Below are positions 7,775-25,509 of a stretch of DNA of 29,047 nt, piece by piece. A program made the position numbers and the translations under genes. The notes beneath the pieces are model-generated. The model saw only the letters and a list, made by a program, of their open reading frames with translations. It had not been told where the DNA came from and ran no database searches. Position 1 is the first letter of the stretch; each line of letters begins with the position of its first letter. The stretch covers positions 1 through 29,047 of IMG/VR virus record IMGVR_UViG_3300025598_000126; one strand, 5' to 3'. The stretch is from a virus.

Positions 7775-7805
7775 TACTAATGCATATCTTTTTAACTATC
7801 CGCCC
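7775..7805 (-). promoter_or_regulatory. Phage promoter motif TGCATTAGTA with GGGCGGAT box
   Basis: The motif TGCATTAGTA lies at 7784-7775 (minus), with GGGCGGAT at 7805-7798, 21 nt upstream. The first G of the box is the last base of the terminase TAG stop. The next ATG is 5 nt downstream of the motif, so the predicted start site falls at or within two bases of that ATG. It opens the portal transcription unit. Confidence 0.78.
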
Positions 7806-9244
7806 TATACGGCGTACGGATTTTCAAATCTCTTATGCCCATCATCAGCATAAGAATAATCCCGCGGTGGAAGAGGATCTAATTGAATCCAGCCTGAATC
7901 ACGGAGCACTCGAAGGGATTGAGATAAGGAATCTACATAGTCATCATGACCGCCTGCTTCAGGGAAAGAACAAACCTGACGCAAAAAACGTTTAGCCCAG
8001 TCTGCAAATTCACCAGGACGTTCTGGATCTTCTGGAATAAATACTTTGCCTTTTGCAATTAATGGTGCTACAATGTTTAATCGCTGGACTTTATCAGCGC
8101 GACCTGGATTGTATCCACGAACTTCGATACCTGATCCTTGGAGCTCTTGAATAAGGGAGATACCTGCTGACTTATCTTCCATCAATACGAGATCGGCTTT
8201 CCTTCCTTTACCGAAATCGTTATCAGCTCCATAGACCATTTCTTTAAAGTCCTCAACGACTTTGCGTCGAAGTTCTGGATAGGCTAGGTGTCCATCCCAT
8301 GCATCCAATAATATAATGGACGTGCCTGCATCTTCGCGCTCAAACACTCCCCACACAGTACATGCCGTTGGGTCATTCATTGTTTTTTCTGATGTGGCTG
8401 GATCGTATGAAGCAATAACGTATTCTAAATCAGGTGTTGGTTTATCTGCTGGCCACATACGGAAATGTTTACGCTTGATGATACCTGCCTGTTCAGGATC
8501 TAAGATCTCACCATAAATTTCTTGACGACCAATATCTGTACCATCGTAAGTTTCTAACTGTTTAAAGAACGTAGCAGATAAATTATCTTTGTTATCGTAC
8601 GACGATGCATTTACCACATAAACATCGCCACCTACTTTGCCTTCATTAAGATCAACAATAAGTTCTTTAGGTTTTGGTGTTGTGGTAATGATTTGTTGCA
8701 CACGAGGAATGCGCGGATCTTTAAGACGTAATGTAAACTGAACACCATCATAGGCATCGTCTAAGTATTCAAATGCACACAACTCATCAAACCATGCACC
8801 ATGAAATTGTTTACCTCGGTAACGTTCAGGTTCTGATCCAGGGATACCTTGGATTAATGATCCGTTGGTTAGAGTAATTTCAAATAGAGACTTGTTGTAA
8901 TCTTTAATGAGAGATGGTGGTATGATATTGAGAAGACCAGAGTCTCCTTCAAAACAAGTGGCTCTGATATCATTTGATGTTGGTGCCGTGACTAACCAGC
9001 GGGTGTTGTCATACTTCCAAGCACGTATACCAATCCAATGGGATGCTGTATGTGTTTTACCTGAACCCCGGCCCGCTAACATGAGGAATGTATCAAACTC
9101 TCCGTCATCAGGTTCGCGTTGATGGGGGAGTGCCTGTAGTGACCATTTGATTTGCCAGATAGCAGCATCAAGTTGGTTCTTTGGCCAGTGTCGGTTTTTA
9201 TTTGCAAAATCTGCTAAGATTTTTTCTTGCTTAAGTGTTAACAT
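7805..9244 (-). CDS. terL: Terminase large subunit (packaging ATPase and nuclease)
   Basis: The 479-residue motor cuts phage DNA and drives it into the prohead at the portal. The ATPase domain has Walker A AGRGSGKT (residues 57-64), Walker B WFDE (151-154) and a coupling motif ITTTPKP (186-192). The C-terminal RNase H-like nuclease shows SYDPATSE (acidic D281), LVLMEDKSAG (E356, D357) and GGHDDYVDSL (D434, D435, D438). The length is normal for the family. No intein interrupts the ATPase. The ATG overlaps the stop of the Hint-like gene (ATGTTAA), so the two are translationally coupled. The candidate small subunit is far away, at 25126-25509 on the other strand. Confidence 0.93.
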   Translation of the reverse strand: MLTLKQEKILADFANKNRHWPKNQLDAAIWQIKWSLQALPHQREPDDGEFDTFLMLAGRGSGKTHTASHWIGIRAWKYDNTRWLVTAPTSNDIRATCFEGDSGLLNIIPPSLIKDYNKSLFEITLTNGSLIQGIPGSEPERYRGKQFHGAWFDELCAFEYLDDAYDGVQFTLRLKDPRIPRVQQIITTTPKPKELIVDLNEGKVGGDVYVVNASSYDNKDNLSATFFKQLETYDGTDIGRQEIYGEILDPEQAGIIKRKHFRMWPADKPTPDLEYVIASYDPATSEKTMNDPTACTVWGVFEREDAGTSIILLDAWDGHLAYPELRRKVVEDFKEMVYGADNDFGKGRKADLVLMEDKSAGISLIQELQGSGIEVRGYNPGRADKVQRLNIVAPLIAKGKVFIPEDPERPGEFADWAKRFLRQVCSFPEAGGHDDYVDSLSQSLRVLRDSGWIQLDPLPPRDYSYADDGHKRFENPYAV

Positions 9245-10230
9245 GTAGATATGAATCCTTCGCCAACAAGTATGCTGTTGTCTTTTCCCGTTGTTTCAAT
9301 GTGCACACACATTTGGGATTGAATGGGTGTGATTTGTTTTATGTATCTTCTACCAAGATAAACTTTTATTGGTGGGGAGTTTTGAATATCCATGATCTTA
9401 ATCCTAAACTTAAAATACAATGTGTATGTATTTCGTCCTGGATTAAAGTTAATGTTAGTCTTTGCTCCTAATGATTCAACTAAAGCTTGAATCTGCCTGA
9501 CTACGTTTAAGTTCCTTGATGAGAATCTAAACGTATCTGTTTTCTTATCATACTGATCTGACTTTGCATGCATGATACCAGTCAATAATTCGATTCGTTC
9601 TTCCACAGAAGCAAACAAATAGTTTGCTGGTATGCGAGAAGGAATGTTGGGTGCCAATTGTAAATGGATCGCTGGTTCTGTTTTAAAGACCCGTTTGCCA
9701 TTTTTTCTTTTAGGCCCTTCAATAATTTTATATCCATGGCTTCTAAACTTTTCATAGATGAAATCTTGGTAGCCTGGAATGGTAACTAAGTTATACTTTG
9801 AGTTTTTATTATAAAGCCAGAACCCAAAAAGAAATGGCGGTATACTTAAAGCTTGGTGAGGAAACTCAATCGGCTTTGTGGTTGGGATCGAATACTTTGT
9901 TCGACCACGTTTATCTTTTAAAGATTCATTCAGGATGTTAGATAGTTTAGTAAACTTTAACTTCCTCATAAACGGCCTGACGTTTTTATAAGCGTCTAAC
10001 TGTTTCCTATGATTTCTGTCTTGGATTAAGAAACCAAGATTAACATCTCCCTCTATGGTAAGATGATCATCAAAAGTTACTTCATAACATTTGTCAGAAA
10101 AATAATGCTGGACCAATTTAACCTGAACGATCTTGCCATTTTGGTTAAATACATAGTCTCCTATTTTTAATTTGTCTGCTCGCTTCCAATAGTCAAGCGT
10201 TAATACTTTTTGAATTGCCGTTATGGCCAT
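9238..10230 (-). CDS. Free-standing intein-like (Hint) protein with degenerate LAGLIDADG domain
   Basis: The 330-residue protein reads like an intein without exteins. Residues 10-72 match the N-terminal Hint block (TLDYWKRADKLKIGDYVFN, then CYEVTFDD and GDVNLGF). The middle resembles a LAGLIDADG endonuclease, but both catalytic motifs are decayed: PPFLFGFWLYNK (131-142) and ERIELLTGIMHAKSD (211-225), where an intact enzyme has an acidic residue after LLGLWLGDG or LLRGLMDTDG. The C-terminus (CVHIETTGKDNS, LVGEGFISTC) resembles the final intein block but ends ST-C where an active intein has His-Asn then Cys, Ser or Thr. It overlaps the terminase start. Splicing and DNA cutting are therefore unlikely; a domesticated role near packaging is a guess. 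Confidence 0.75.
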   Translation of the reverse strand: MAITAIQKVLTLDYWKRADKLKIGDYVFNQNGKIVQVKLVQHYFSDKCYEVTFDDHLTIEGDVNLGFLIQDRNHRKQLDAYKNVRPFMRKLKFTKLSNILNESLKDKRGRTKYSIPTTKPIEFPHQALSIPPFLFGFWLYNKNSKYNLVTIPGYQDFIYEKFRSHGYKIIEGPKRKNGKRVFKTEPAIHLQLAPNIPSRIPANYLFASVEERIELLTGIMHAKSDQYDKKTDTFRFSSRNLNVVRQIQALVESLGAKTNINFNPGRNTYTLYFKFRIKIMDIQNSPPIKVYLGRRYIKQITPIQSQMCVHIETTGKDNSILVGEGFISTC

Positions 10231-10250
10231 CTAAACTTATCCAAGTCTAT

Positions 10251-10279
10251 AAAAAAGAAAGGGACGTTTTAAGCCCCTT
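10251..10279 (-). terminator. Rho-independent terminator downstream of pqqA
   Basis: On the minus strand AAGGGGC pairs with GTCCCTT (one G-U pair) around a 7-base loop and is followed by TCTTTTTT. It lies 26 nt past the pqqA stop and before the Hint and terminase genes. No promoter motif follows it, so those genes would depend on read-through. Confidence 0.8.
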
Positions 10280-10304
10280 CCAAAAAGTTATACAAAAATA
10301 TAAC

Positions 10305-10379
10305 TTATTTGTTCATCACGTACATAGTTACTTCAAAGCCAAAACGCATTTCTGTAGCTGCTGGTTTAGTCCAAGCCAT
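10305..10379 (-). CDS. pqqA: PqqA, coenzyme PQQ precursor peptide
   Basis: This 24-residue peptide starts MAWTKPA and ends GFEVTMYVMNK, the layout of PqqA proteins (W-T/K-K-P-A, then L/M-R-x-G-x-E-V-T-x-Y). Glu16 and Tyr20 have the E-x3-Y spacing. In known PqqA peptides these residues are cross-linked by the radical SAM enzyme PqqE with the chaperone PqqD, and then excised to build PQQ, the cofactor of methanol and glucose dehydrogenases. No other pqq gene is in the window, so the host must supply the rest. AAGGAG stands 7 nt before the ATG. Two tandem phage promoter motifs precede it and a terminator follows, giving a short monocistronic message. The gene was too short for a normal ORF search. 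Confidence 0.9.
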   Translation of the reverse strand: MAWTKPAATEMRFGFEVTMYVMNK

Positions 10380-10425
10380 GTTGTTCTCCTTTTTAGATCA
10401 AATGTACTCGATATGAGCACATCTT

Positions 10426-10435
10426 TACTAATGCA
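10426..10435 (-). promoter_or_regulatory. Proximal phage promoter motif of pqqA
   Basis: TGCATTAGTA reads on the minus strand. Transcription would begin near 10419. Exactly there a GTGCTC / GAGTAC hairpin (10420-10404, one G-U pair) would form the 5' end of the pqqA message. The AAGGAG follows it. No GGGCG box is present 21 nt upstream. Confidence 0.72.
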
Positions 10436-10483
10436 GTAATCAAAATTGTTTGGCTACGCAAAACCATGAACGTTGTCTACGTA

Positions 10484-10493
10484 TACTAATGCA
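10484..10493 (-). promoter_or_regulatory. Distal phage promoter motif of pqqA, outward end of repeat A
   Basis: AAATTTGCATTAGTA reads on the minus strand, 51 nt outside the repeat core at 10544. The same distance separates the other repeat from its outward motif at 17834. It is tandem with the motif at 10426-10435. Confidence 0.72.
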
Positions 10494-10815
10494 AATTTGC
10501 GCAAATTATTGCCAAAAATTTGCAGTATTAACAAAAAAGTATATGTAAGTCATTGATTTATAACAGTTTGTCATACTTCTTTTTATGTAAGTCATTGAAT
10601 ATAAAGGATTGTTACAATTTGTAACAATTGTGTGTCACACTTTACCCCTCTGTAACCCATTGATTAATAACACATTGTCACACTTGCCACACTTCTTTGT
10701 CTATTTTTCTATTTTAAAAAATAAAAAATAAAAATTAGGGTGGGGGGTAATATGCGTTTTAAGTGTGACAAGTGTGACAAGTGTGACAACTTGTTTAAAA
10801 TCAATAACTTACAAA
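10484..10815. repeat. Inverted repeat A: iteron-bearing regulatory or origin region
   Basis: The core 10544-10815 (272 bp) is a diverged inverted copy of 17512-17783, also 272 bp. It holds seven 9-bp iterons: GTCACACTT-type at 10570, 10634, 10677 and 10686 (two with one mismatch) and AAGTGTGAC at 10761, 10770 and 10779. It also has a palindrome with ATTGTTACA arms (10608-10628), repeated TGTAAGTCATTGATT-like words, and an A/T-only centre near 10705-10735. Direct and inverted iterons face each other across that centre, as in replication origins or divergent operators. No gene lies in it. Confidence 0.8.
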
Positions 10816-11451
10816 GGTCAAAATTGCCAGATTTTTAAAAAAAATTTTTTAGGAATCGACTTTTTTAAAAATTGACGCGATTTATAAAAACTTGCGGTCT
10901 GTGGGGCCCCCGCCGCCCCCCTCAGGTAGGGGACCCAAATTGGGGTATCGCCTCGATCGAAATACCCCTACTGCAAGGAGGGTTATTTGATTCGCTAGTC
11001 TAGCAAGGGTTGCAAGGCATCGTGCCTCGCCTCGCCTTGCTATGCCAGCGAGGCGCGATGCTCGCTCGATCGCATCGGTGCGAGGCATGGTGCTCACTCA
11101 ATCGCGAGGCATCGAGGCAAGGTGCGAGCAAGGGGCGCGCATCATCAAGGCATCGAGGCAAGGTGGCAAGGTGCGAGCGAGGCAAGGTGGCAAGGTGCGA
11201 GGCGTGATGATCGAGCATCGAGGCATCGTGCGACGCGATCGAGCCGATCGGGCGAGGCATCGTGCGTGATCGATGCGCACGCGAGGGCTCGGGGGTGGCG
11301 TGACCATGATATGTAAAACTTATCAGAGGGGCGCGCCTGATATGAAATGACAATCAAAAAGAATCGAGATATATATAGTATTTGAAAATGATCTCGGGTT
11401 ATAATCGGGCGTGCGCAATCTCGCGCATATTTAAAAGAAAGGTTATTGATT
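10816..11451. other. GC-rich, repeat-rich noncoding segment
   Basis: About 10890-11320 is built from few words (GCGAG, GGCATCG, AAGGTG, CGATCG). A 14-bp hairpin joins 11017-11030 to 11048-11061 with one G-U pair. A 23-bp direct repeat lies at 11155-11177 and 11179-11201, beginning GAGGCAAGGTGGCAAGG. GGGGTAT and ATACCCC pair around 10945-10975. Open frames exist on both strands but are low-complexity products of the repeats. I see no tRNA and no convincing gene. The last 100 bases are AT-richer and carry the leader of the next gene. Confidence 0.6.
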
Positions 11452-13104
11452 ATGAATCTCGCTATTTCATCACCACATCAATCGACACCACGCCTCGCCA
11501 CGCTTAATGCGATCGCGCGAGGCTTGCTCGAATCAGACGAAACGGGGCGATACAATTACATCGACACGATTCGATCATTCATTCGGGGCAATCTACAATC
11601 GCCCCATAAATACAATGTCGCAAGCGCATCATCTCGCGCCAATGACAAGCGCATCGGGCATACGTTATCGACACGCATCGCCACGATCAAAAAGCACCCG
11701 AAAGACATCGAATTTGCTTTTCAATATATTTCATTGATTCATCAGATGAATGAGGCGCAAGCGATGCGATTCGAGCCCTCATTCGTGAAAGCACGCGAAA
11801 AGATGAGATCGGGTGAATGGCAAGCGATAAGATTGACGGGCATCAATGCTAATATCGAGGGCGATCACCTTGAAAAATTCGATCGATTCAATTTTATCTA
11901 CAATTTGCATTTTTCAGTAAGCGAGCCGTCACTCGTCGCGTATTATCCGAGCCTTGAGCATATGCGACGCCAAAAAGAAACGAAATTGCGATTCGGTAAA
12001 TTCTTAACCAATATAAAAGACGAGATCGGCATCGAATCAGAATCGATCATTAAATCGTATGTCGATTCATATAATGCGATTCTCGAGGCGCGAAATGGTT
12101 GGAAATTGGATTTTATCGGCTCGAATGATCGCGAGGGTTGGCTCGATGTTTATCGCGACGATCGCCACGTCAATTCATGTATGAGCGATTGTGATTCGGT
12201 GAAATTATATGCGCACGATCTATCAGTTTTAAGATTGGCGTATTTAAGCGATCGCGACGATCACGTGCTCGCTCGATGTATCGTGCGTGATGATGTGAAA
12301 GAGTATATTCGCGTCTATCCAGCCCCCGAGAATAGCACGACGGGAAAATGGTTGCAGTCACTATTGATCGATCAAGGTTATAAGCATGGCACGCTTAATG
12401 ATGTGCTTATTAAAACTTTTGATAGCGATGAGGGTTATAAAGCACCATATATCGATCGAGGCAATTCGAGCGATTGTCAATTCGCCGATCTCGAAACGAT
12501 CGACGGGAAATTATATTTCCGAATCGGAAATAGTGGCAATCATCACCTTGTATGCACGAATGGATTCGATCGCGAAATCGACGAATACGACGATAATTCG
12601 GTGTATTGTGAATGGTGTGGCGATTATCATCATGAAGATGACACGCGATACCACGATCATCTCGGTTATTCAGTATGCGACGGGTGCGCCGATAATGATG
12701 GTGTGCACGCGATCAATGAAAATGGCGATCAAGAATTTATTCATCTCGATGACGCCTTTTACTGTGAAAGTGATAGCGAGTATTACACGCGCGACGCACA
12801 CGACGAGAATGTCATCATTTGTGATGATGTTTCGTGTCAATATTTTCTCGCCGATGAAATGATCGAAACGTCGATCGAGGGCGTGTGGATTCATCGAGAA
12901 AATGCAATAACCCCGATTATCGAATATGTGCGATCTCATACCACGTATAAATCGGGCGTCACCGAAACCCATTTTCAAAATTATATCGATGTGAGCGAGG
13001 CGCGATTCTTGCCGAATGGCGAGGCGATTCATTTCACCCAATATGATGACATGATCGGCGTGCTAAATTCTTATAAAATTGAAAGCGAGGCAATCGATGC
13101 GTAA
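11452..13104 (+). CDS. Large hypothetical protein with zinc-ribbon motif
   Basis: This is a 550-residue protein. I start it at the ATG at 11452, with AAAGG about 10 nt upstream, rather than at a TTG two codons earlier. Residues about 1-330 contain helical, charged sequence with VNSCMS and ARCIVRDDVKEYIRVYP. Four cysteines C386-x2-C389-x19-C409-x2-C412 (CEWCG ... VCDGC) make a zinc ribbon. A second, weaker copy follows (FYCESDSEYY ... IICDDVSC). The protein is acidic. Arg codons are largely CGA and CGC and the DNA is full of GATC and TCGA, unlike the flanking phage genes, which suggests a separate origin. Function unknown; nucleic acid or protein binding through the ribbon is possible. Confidence 0.7.
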   Translation: MNLAISSPHQSTPRLATLNAIARGLLESDETGRYNYIDTIRSFIRGNLQSPHKYNVASASSRANDKRIGHTLSTRIATIKKHPKDIEFAFQYISLIHQMNEAQAMRFEPSFVKAREKMRSGEWQAIRLTGINANIEGDHLEKFDRFNFIYNLHFSVSEPSLVAYYPSLEHMRRQKETKLRFGKFLTNIKDEIGIESESIIKSYVDSYNAILEARNGWKLDFIGSNDREGWLDVYRDDRHVNSCMSDCDSVKLYAHDLSVLRLAYLSDRDDHVLARCIVRDDVKEYIRVYPAPENSTTGKWLQSLLIDQGYKHGTLNDVLIKTFDSDEGYKAPYIDRGNSSDCQFADLETIDGKLYFRIGNSGNHHLVCTNGFDREIDEYDDNSVYCEWCGDYHHEDDTRYHDHLGYSVCDGCADNDGVHAINENGDQEFIHLDDAFYCESDSEYYTRDAHDENVIICDDVSCQYFLADEMIETSIEGVWIHRENAITPIIEYVRSHTTYKSGVTETHFQNYIDVSEARFLPNGEAIHFTQYDDMIGVLNSYKIESEAIDA

Positions 13105-13396
13105 ATATCCGATCGGTGTTTTATTGCCCTATCAAAATCATTTTAATAAGCCTCTCGAGAGCGATATTAAATCGGGCGAGATTATGAAATTGATCGAGCA
13201 TCTCGATTTAAGAAAATGCAATTATGACGGGCTCTATTATCCACGCGCATATATGATTCTTACAAGTTTCGGATTGATTGCCGAGCAATACGCAATTAAG
13301 ATCGATGAAAGCGAGTATTCGTGCATGGATAATGAGTATCTCGGATTTATTTTAAATCCAATTTTTAGAAAAGAAAGCGAGGCAGTAAATGGATAG
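13097..13396 (+). CDS. Hypothetical protein
   Basis: This 99-residue protein starts MRKYPIGVLLPYQNHF, with its ATG overlapping the previous stop (ATGCGTAA). A run of hydrophobic and aromatic residues (DGLYYPRAYMILTSFGLIAEQYAI) sits in the middle, too polar for a clear membrane segment. It shares the CGA/GATC-rich composition of its neighbours and overlaps the next gene by 8 nt, so the three form one operon. No family recognised. Confidence 0.65.
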   Translation: MRKYPIGVLLPYQNHFNKPLESDIKSGEIMKLIEHLDLRKCNYDGLYYPRAYMILTSFGLIAEQYAIKIDESEYSCMDNEYLGFILNPIFRKESEAVNG

Positions 13397-14489
13397 ATTA
13401 TTAAACATTTTGTCATACAGGCGCGAGCACAATTCGATCGGCGAGTTGTCATTCGCTTTAAAATACTTGAGCCAATTCGAGCCGATGCACAATCTCGACG
13501 GCGATGTCATCGCGTATCGATTCGATAATACGCACCCCGAGGATAAATCGCGCGTGCTCTTTTCGTGCCACATCGACACGATGCACCGATCGAATCCCGA
13601 TCGCGCATTTCAAGAGGTGTATCTCGATTCATTCTCGAATCAAGTATTCATTGATTCAAGCGATGATTGCCTCGGTGCCGATGATGGCGCAGGCGTCTTT
13701 TTATTGCTCGAGATGATCGATCGAGGCGTGCATGGTGCCTTTATATTTCATCGAGGCGAGGAGAAAGGGGGCATCGGCTCGCGTGCCATGGTTGAGTATC
13801 ATTCCGATTGGTTATCTACTTTCACCCATGCGATAGCTTTCGATCGTCGAGGCACGCAATCAATCATTACGCATCAAGGCACGTGTCGAGGCGCATCGGA
13901 TACGTGCGCGCAATTCATCATTGACACGATCGGCATGAATCACGTGCTCGATGATACGGGCACTTATACTGACACGCGCGAATATTTCGGGCTTATTCCC
14001 GAATGTTTTAATTTCTCGATCGGGTACGATCACGAGCATTCATCGCGTGAAATACTCGACGTCGATTATTTGATGCGATTACGCGATCGCATTACATCGA
14101 TCGAATGGGGCGCGCTTGAATTGCCGATCGATCGCGAGCCAAAATATGCCGATTACGATGACAAGTATTCTAGCTATTATTCGGGCGCATATTATTCGAT
14201 CTATGACAATCCCGATTTAGATGAGGTGCTATACATGGATAAACGCGAGCTCGCTCGATTCATTAAGAAAAGCAAGCCCGAAAAAATCGCCGATATTATG
14301 AGCGATCTTATTAATCATGTATTCGAGCTCGACGATTATATTGCGCAAGGCAATTCACAATACGCGCGCGACGATTACGCCGATTATTATTCTTTTAATG
14401 ATTCGCGCATCGATGAGCGCGCGTCACTATTGAAAGCACCAATCGAAAATACTCTCGAGCGCGATCTCGAAACCGATTATTCGGGGTGA
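13389..14489 (+). CDS. Di-zinc peptidase of the M20/M28-like clan
   Basis: The 366-residue protein has the metal-ligand series of co-catalytic zinc exopeptidases in order. These are FSCHIDTMH (H61, D63), LGADDGAG (D98, bridging metal), HRGEEKGGIGS (E124 catalytic, E125 ligand), AFDRRGT (D152) and IGYDHEHSSRE (H216 or H218). Such enzymes remove amino acids from peptides or deacylate small substrates in the cytoplasm. The last 120 residues are acidic and Tyr-rich (YDDKYSSYYSGAYYS) and look unlike the family, so they may be a phage-specific extension. It closes a three-gene operon before a strong terminator and shares that operon's odd base composition. The substrate cannot be told; cell-wall peptides or peptide nutrient recovery are possible. 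Confidence 0.8.
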   Translation: MDRLLNILSYRREHNSIGELSFALKYLSQFEPMHNLDGDVIAYRFDNTHPEDKSRVLFSCHIDTMHRSNPDRAFQEVYLDSFSNQVFIDSSDDCLGADDGAGVFLLLEMIDRGVHGAFIFHRGEEKGGIGSRAMVEYHSDWLSTFTHAIAFDRRGTQSIITHQGTCRGASDTCAQFIIDTIGMNHVLDDTGTYTDTREYFGLIPECFNFSIGYDHEHSSREILDVDYLMRLRDRITSIEWGALELPIDREPKYADYDDKYSSYYSGAYYSIYDNPDLDEVLYMDKRELARFIKKSKPEKIADIMSDLINHVFELDDYIAQGNSQYARDDYADYYSFNDSRIDERASLLKAPIENTLERDLETDYSG

Positions 14490-14516
14490 AGATTTAATTT
14501 TTATTTAATCATTCGA

Positions 14517-14543
14517 GCCCCGATCTATTCGGGGCTTTTTTTT
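14517..14543 (+). terminator. Strong Rho-independent terminator
   Basis: GCCCCGA pairs with TCGGGGC around a 5-base loop and is followed by eight T residues. It lies 28 nt past the stop of the peptidase gene and ends the 11452-14489 operon. Confidence 0.95.
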
Positions 14544-14680
14544 GAGTGCTATTCGAGCGATTAAATAAGTATTAAATCAGCGATCGATTCGATCGAATTA
14601 AATCGATTTTAAGGGGCTTTTTATATTCATTGAGCGAGGCGATTCTCGGGGTAATGATATTACATCAAGCACCAAAAAAT

Positions 14681-25125: not shown

Positions 25126-25509
25126 ATGGCAACAAACAAAAAATATAAGTTTAATGAAGAAGATGCTAAGAAGATTTTACTTCTTGGGCAGCAAGGTGCA
25201 TCACAAAAAGCGATGTACGCCGCAATTGGCATAAGTAAAACAACTGCGCTTAAACTTAAAAAAGAAGATCCTGTATTTGCAGAAGCTATGGATTTAGCAA
25301 CAACCTATGGTCAAGCATATTGGGAAAATTTGATGTTAGCCAATATCGAAAACAAAGCATTCAATTCCCGTGTTGCAGAGATTGCATTACGAGGCCAATA
25401 CCCCGATGATTACAAAGACTCAAGAGAACAAAAGATTGATCTCAAAGCAGAGGTTGTAGTCGACTTTAATAAAGAAATAGCTAACCTAATTTCCGCCTTA
25501 AAGCAATAA
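25126..25509 (+). CDS. terS: Possible terminase small subunit
   Basis: This is a 127-residue protein. The N-terminal HTH-like part (ASQKAMYAAIGISKTTALKL) is followed by EAMDLATTYGQAYWENLMLA, then FNSRVAEIALRGQYPDDYKD and an end with VVDFNKEIANLISALKQ. This order (HTH, W-rich helix, then a C-terminal helix) resembles small terminases that recognise packaging sites. The large subunit is at 7805-9244 on the other strand, so the two subunits are not neighbours. A transcription regulator is the main alternative. Ends just before a strong terminator. Confidence 0.6.
   Translation: MATNKKYKFNEEDAKKILLLGQQGASQKAMYAAIGISKTTALKLKKEDPVFAEAMDLATTYGQAYWENLMLANIENKAFNSRVAEIALRGQYPDDYKDSREQKIDLKAEVVVDFNKEIANLISALKQ

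Follow-up and report, generated by a model that had tools for sequence, protein, structure and literature searches.

A class 3 intein derivative lacking its splicing and nuclease residues is maintained by purifying selection as a free-standing gene before terL in a phage lineage

The stretch of DNA analysed here, referred to as the window, comprises 29,047 nt of a viral record (IMG/VR IMGVR_UViG_3300025598_000126, positions 1 to 29,047). Two overlapping genes are located on its minus strand. The downstream gene, terL (7805–9244), encodes a large terminase subunit (TerL) that matches the Pfam profiles Terminase_6N (E 1.1e-15) and Terminase_6C in a profile search. It is uninterrupted: its Walker A motif (GRGSGKT) is without insert, i.e., the intein site corresponding to GK^T is empty. 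Directly upstream, an unbroken open reading frame (ORF) of 330 codons plus stop occupies exactly positions 9238–10230; full-length homologues of its product, P0001, were found. The stop codon of this ORF overlaps with the start of terL by 7 nt (ATGTTAA, 9238–9244), and in the family ORFs examined, the overlap measures 7 to 10 nt. The first-pass annotation had described a free-standing intein relic, the stop codon of which overlaps the terminase ATG, fused to the start of terL. The overlap, the intein origin (see below) and the free-standing state before terL are borne out, as P0001 has its own ORF and an intact terL lies in another frame. The fusion must be abandoned, however, since the two genes are in different frames with an overlap of 7 nt.

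P0001 does not reside in frame within a host protein. A hidden N-extein upstream is ruled out in the window, where an in-frame TAG precedes the ATG, and in relatives, many of which have an upstream gene that overlaps by 38 nt in another frame; an in-frame stop precedes the ATG in several loci. At the other end, family proteins are followed by a stop codon instead of a C-extein. The C-terminus of P0001 reads GEGFISTC, and the earlier reading of ST-C in place of HN-C was correct inasmuch as the His-Asn (HN) is absent. The terminal Cys is not a +1 nucleophile, though: it is dictated by the terL ATG with which it overlaps, as ACATGT encodes T-C in one frame and harbours ATG in the other. The Gly-Glu-Gly codons just ahead (9256–9264, minus strand) hold the Shine–Dalgarno-like GAAGGA. 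All 66 unique family ORFs have such a core (GARGG in the GEG codons) at most 20 nt from the terL ATG, since GEG codons yield it nearly automatically. Over 57 sequences, terL codons 1–12 show raised synonymous conservation (+3.7 sd).

In the window phage, the intein-like gene is preceded by a 24-amino-acid ORF (MAWTKPAATEMRFGFEVTMYVMNK; 10305–10379, minus strand) that matches Pfam PqqA with 42.8 bits (cut-off 21.1), i.e., a gene for the precursor peptide of PQQ. PqqA is reported in a phage of methylotrophs from Lake Baikal (PMC7678222). With a regular expression that misses the window's own spelling, pqqA-like peptides were found in at least 26 of 169 loci. Three consecutive hairpins are predicted at 10228–10310 on the minus strand, from pqqA to the intein-like ATG (z −3.69), one terminator-like and one directly ahead of the start codon; an intrinsic-terminator-like hairpin lies at 10257–10281, between the two genes. 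There is no Rfam match within window positions 9000–11500. A different arrangement, absent from the window's clade, exists in 28 relatives, where two hairpins precede the intein-like start by about 65 nt (e.g., L040:1104–1170). These hairpins overlap the coding end of the upstream gene and show compensatory changes in 17 cells, versus 5.2 ± 1.7 in shuffles; an RNA control element is possible. In L040 (897–1205) and many other relatives, the upstream gene, which extends 38 nt at its 3′ end into the intein-like gene, encodes a protein of about 102 amino acids with no match in PHROG or NCBIfam. Elsewhere in the window, CGATCG is strongly over-represented (35 copies versus 5.2 expected), most copies being within 10954–14595, and a GC-rich, repeat-like stretch lies near 11000–11300.

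The AlphaFold2 model of P0001, built on an alignment of 42 sequences, has a pLDDT of 94.2 and a pTM of 0.90, and its fold is that of a full intein with Hint and LAGLIDADG domains. The best match of the whole model to a solved structure is PI-SceI (1jva_B; Z 24.9, 318 residues, 3.7 Å). The Hint part alone matches the class 3 intein MchDnaB-1 (6rix_B; Z 18.8, 128 residues, rmsd 1.9 Å) and the Msm DnaB intein (6bs8_A; Z 18.4), and the LAGLIDADG part matches I-DmoI and PI-SceI. The Hint-type terminal parts suspected from the sequence are thereby confirmed. Matches in viral structure libraries include inteins of terminases and DnaB, among others, and one BFVD entry (A0A6J7WN65; 293 amino acids, 26% identity) may be a further family member. 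Foldseek and further structure comparison of P0001 did not indicate a function. In the PHROG profile search, P0001 matched phrog_15, an intein-bearing profile of the large terminase subunit (E 2.4e-14), and no TerS family. A tblastn search with P0001 gave matches in 453 phage records, with at least 80% query coverage in 364; the similarity thus exceeds what chance would produce. Among PDB sequences, class 3 DnaB inteins come closest, though with weak E values (0.0075–0.018). Pfam returned no match for P0001 even at E 10, and NCBIfam none at E 1, so that normal annotation would list it as hypothetical; among the 42 aligned relatives, Pfam at E 0.01 finds LAGLIDADG_3 in three and Hom_end in two.

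We aligned 61 unique family proteins with 13 live class 3 inteins drawn from phage records and a motif scan. Class 3 inteins are described as having no nucleophile at position 1 and as bearing a WCT motif (PMC5050341, PMC7664689), consisting of the block B Trp, the block F Cys and the +1 Thr. The live relatives mostly have Ala1, His and Trp in block B, Cys in block F and HN before Ser or Thr, and several interrupt TerL or DnaB at the Walker A GK^T. The WCT motif is absent from the family. In the N-terminal Hint part of P0001 (residues 1–112; 9895–10230, minus strand), Ala2 takes the position of the class 3 Ala1, while Leu65 and Phe67 replace the block B His and Trp. The C-terminal Hint part, residues 290–330 (9241–9363, minus strand), has His310 (9301–9303) where the block F nucleophile Cys stands. 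These features are general: all 61 proteins have Ala at class 3 position 1 and never Cys or Ser (seven Ala and two Gly in nine deep-branching members); the block B His is Leu or Met and the block B Trp is Phe or Leu in each of the 61; and the block F Cys, kept in 13 of 13 live inteins, is His in every one. Across a broader set comprising 99 full-length proteins, 93 have His at the block F position and six have Tyr. The C-terminal HN occurs in none of the 61, nor in any of 77 further loci. Blocks F and G align without gaps to those of the live inteins, H standing in place of C; this puts His310 at the nucleophile position. Cys308, considered as a retained block F Cys, was rejected; it is Val in two of the 61.

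P0001 is thus derived from a class 3 intein, and, given such a source, the relevant losses are those of His and Trp in block B and of Cys in block F, not of a Cys1. The alignment with terL inteins and the structure prediction agree: the Hint fold is present and the active splice residues are absent. In trees, the family forms one group among the class 3 inteins with a support of 0.302, or 0.783 when the nine deeper members are included, which backs a single origin among live class 3 inteins weakly to moderately. Of the live C-terminal blocks found, that of L273 is the nearest (CIETDSPDNLFLVGEGFIPTHN against HIETDGPDGSFLVGEGFITCR), suggesting that little change separates the C-terminal end of the family from a live one; it does not tell the route to the place before terL.

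The LAGLIDADG domain (residues 122–285; 9376–9867, minus strand) is catalytically dead and net basic. In P0001, the catalytic Asp of the first motif is Asn141, followed by Lys142 instead of Gly (9805–9810), and that of the second motif is Lys223 (9562–9564). None of the 61 proteins has Asp at either place, which agrees with the previously noted loss of both catalytic motifs in a LAGLIDADG-like middle. Position 141 is N in 40, S in 11, A in four, G in four and T in two; position 142, Gly in live inteins, is R in 33, K in 20, H in six, E in one and T in one; position 223 is K in 50, R in seven, Y in two, Q in one and S in one. The two acidic residues of an active LAGLIDADG homing endonuclease are consequently absent, and every catalytic position examined, for splicing and nuclease alike, is lost in 61 of 61 proteins. 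The nine deeper members show an intermediate decay: one keeps Asp141, and four retain the first of the Asp residues in the second motif, position 223 being Lys or Arg in seven and Gly in two. The mean net charge of the domain is +9.4 in the family versus +1.1 in live inteins, and the median pI of the proteins is 9.56 versus 8.64 in the 13 live inteins. Among 27 window proteins examined, mostly acidic ones, P0001 ranks second in basicity. From the basic charge together with the replacement of catalytic residues, we infer that the protein probably binds nucleic acid without cutting; the charge by itself is also compatible with RNA binding.

The family is large, with 335 relatives confirmed in IMG/VR. 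INPHARED phage records hold no close relative, the best identities being about 25%. In GTDB, searched with one genome per species, one beta-proteobacterial MAG (Umea2p1_bin-1447) contains the family, on three contigs (L274, L275 and L276) with one member each, which suggests that several related phages were binned together.

In 77 of 80 TerL loci found with the TerL of the window (P0002), the intein-like gene is directly upstream of terL, and the three others hold merely 17, 17 and 55 nt before terL. A search with the family alignment added 77 new loci: terL is present in all of these and directly adjacent in 76. As a further sample, we used 80 TerLs among the matches listed, picked by a TerL motif and not by similarity to the window phage. 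Among these, all 33 TerLs that are at least 76% identical and have at least 150 nt upstream are accompanied by the gene, i.e., no loss was seen within the carrier lineage, and none of the 40 at 49–56% identity is; no TerL among the matches listed falls between the two groups. It is likewise absent from 82 sister-clade loci, where no family-like live intein was found either. Presence limited to close TerLs, with none in distant or sister loci, indicates acquisition in one TerL lineage. Two differently placed insertions separate the gene from terL: L150 has 654 nt with an HNH/EndoVII-like ORF (1700–2360), and L329 and L340 have about 343 nt with such an ORF, its type being judged by eye from the translation. 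The intein-like ORF is intact in L150 and L329 (the copy in L340 is cut by the contig end), which speaks for a function of the protein itself, and not just of its reading frame. In Caulobacter phage GB2A (L098:2445–3113) and in L194, the full TerL is directly preceded by a second TerL-like protein, or a piece of one, that comprises the ATPase only.

Purifying selection acts on all three parts of the protein. The dN/dS ranges between 0.035 and 0.118 in 26 close pairs, which overlap and are not independent, with a highest bootstrap upper bound of 0.224; pooled over nine pairs, it is 0.115 for the N-terminal Hint part, 0.045 for LAGLIDADG and 0.049 for the C-terminal Hint part, so the dead endonuclease domain ranks among the parts under the strongest constraint. 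Full-length ORFs account for 85 of 92, the other seven being cut by contig ends, and a premature stop occurs in one of the 77 further loci (L120). The divergence of the family protein tracks that of TerL (Mantel r 0.631, 0 of 2000 permutations), at a much faster rate: the mean distance is 0.50 in the family protein versus 0.14 in TerL. Unequal dS between the intein-like gene and terL in some pairs suggests that recombination may take place near their junction. The selection analysis in relatives that had been proposed as a check hence supports a retained function. As in domesticated homing elements of the HO or WhiA type, purifying selection goes together with a fixed, non-mobile position. Of the options left by the first-pass annotation, a domesticated protein is the favoured one, and we regard domestication as highly probable. 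A splicing element that has moved may lie at the origin, but the protein now has a fixed place next to terL and is not mobile.

Other explanations account for some of these data. The ORF could be a translational leader that brings ribosomes to the overlapping terL start, the protein being unimportant; the short start–stop overlap, the GARGG core and the conserved first terL codons would all suit it. A leader, however, has no need of a 330-amino-acid sequence under a dN/dS of about 0.05, nor would it be expected to stay intact where another ORF splits it from terL, and we consider it improbable. That P0001 is a functionless, decaying relic, as the first-pass annotation had also allowed, accords with the loss of all examined catalytic residues and the single premature stop, and is contradicted by the strong purifying selection, the full-length ORFs and the presence in all 33 related TerL loci with room among the matches listed; the chance of this is minimal. 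A better case can be made for a protein partner of TerL, i.e., an assembly factor, chaperone or extra terminase subunit acting otherwise than by DNA binding. Its place beside terL is strict (33 of 33 loci with room among the matches listed; three loci have an ORF between), the terL start codon lies within the gene, and both proteins diverge in a correlated manner. Yet co-inheritance alone accounts for the correlation, the LAGLIDADG domain, which has turned basic, belongs to the most strongly constrained parts, and a TerS-like gene exists elsewhere in the window (25126–25509; phrog_309, E 8.6e-9); we hold such a partnership to be unlikely. Because of that separate gene, a simple replacement of TerS by P0001 was rejected.

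Two further alternatives were considered. Residual chemistry, such as altered cleavage, trans splicing or nicking, could employ His310, invariant in the 61 proteins at the former class 3 nucleophile position, or Cys308, present in 59 of 61, as a new active residue. Against this, Tyr takes the place of His in six of 99 and Val that of Cys308 in two of 61, and neither the His and Trp of block B nor the HN at the C-terminus is present; moreover, a class 3 intein without the Cys in block F and the His in block B is described as failing to splice (PMC3196547). New chemistry is thus very improbable. Equally slight as the relic is the prospect that P0001 shields the empty terL intein site against rival live homing endonucleases. 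Several live relatives do sit at the terL GK^T, and that of the window is empty, but no family-like live intein occurs in the 82 sister loci, and synonymous-codon conservation over 57 sequences is not raised at the terL P-loop (codons 57–68; −0.2 sd), giving no hint of a binding site there, for which reason this shield is kept as a low-probability rival.

We favour the reading that P0001 is a domesticated class 3 intein, dead in splicing and nuclease, which binds DNA and acts in packaging or operon regulation (probability roughly 0.6). In the ancestor of the lineage, an intein of the kind found in phage terL or dnaB would have become a gene of its own immediately ahead of an intact terL. The stand-alone intein would then have lost its splicing and nuclease residues, the acidic catalytic positions being swapped mainly for Lys/Arg or Asn, while a stable Hint–LAGLIDADG protein was kept, whose LAGLIDADG saddle most likely continues to hold DNA without being able to cut it. 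With the ribosome-binding site and start codon of terL inside the last P0001 codons, both proteins are presumably co-translated. DNA binding, suggested by net charge and residue replacement, is probable; the most likely action would be in a DNA-packaging step or as regulator of its own/terL operon. The position next to terL suggests such a role, its packaging part being a tentative and less probable one. More speculative, and rather doubtful, is that the dead protein recognises the packaging/terminase-cleavage site or the terL operon and passes DNA to TerL as an essential part of packaging.

Inteins are usually viewed as parasites, or at most as conditional switches within their host protein. 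Here, in a large family, the element has left the host protein and lost both enzymatic activities, yet it is under strong selection at one fixed place. If the proposed role is true, a selfish element that once attacked terL, the gene class described as the most frequent intein target in mycobacteriophages (PMC5050341), now serves packaging, having been domesticated with both activities lost. Judging from titles and abstracts, we recognised no earlier description of such a protein in the open-access literature searched. With this family, whether and how inteins turn useful becomes an experimentally testable question.

The closest known systems are the class 3 inteins of TerL and DnaB (mycobacteriophage TerL; MchDnaB-1, 6rix; Msm DnaB, 6bs8), with which the family shares the Hint fold, Ala1, the order of the blocks, the place of the LAGLIDADG domain (in full-length ones) and a C-terminal block near-identical up to GEGFI. 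Unlike these, it has no host extein, uses its own start codon, is a vertically kept gene and is without the block B His/Trp, the block F Cys, the HN and the nuclease Asp. The class 3 intein Arth_1007 of Arthrobacter FB24, as described in PMC3196547, is likewise devoid of a real host protein, of the block F Cys and of the block B His, and does not splice; that account presents a single pseudogene, whereas here we find a large family with intact ORFs under purifying selection. The yeast proteins HO and WHO are also intein-derived, stand-alone and non-splicing, being located beside (WHO) or away from a host gene, with HO being domesticated, but they are reported to keep the nuclease and zinc fingers (PMC7282813), while the phage protein is nuclease-dead and has no zinc finger. 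WhiA, as portrayed in PMC11701221, has a LAGLIDADG domain without nuclease activity, retained for DNA binding, and may by analogy serve as a precedent for binding nucleic acid without cutting it; it is a bacterial transcription factor with an HTH and no Hint domain, in contrast to the Hint-containing family protein. Intein-derived domesticated proteins are already known; in the one described here, both activities are gone and the protein is fixed in a phage lineage.
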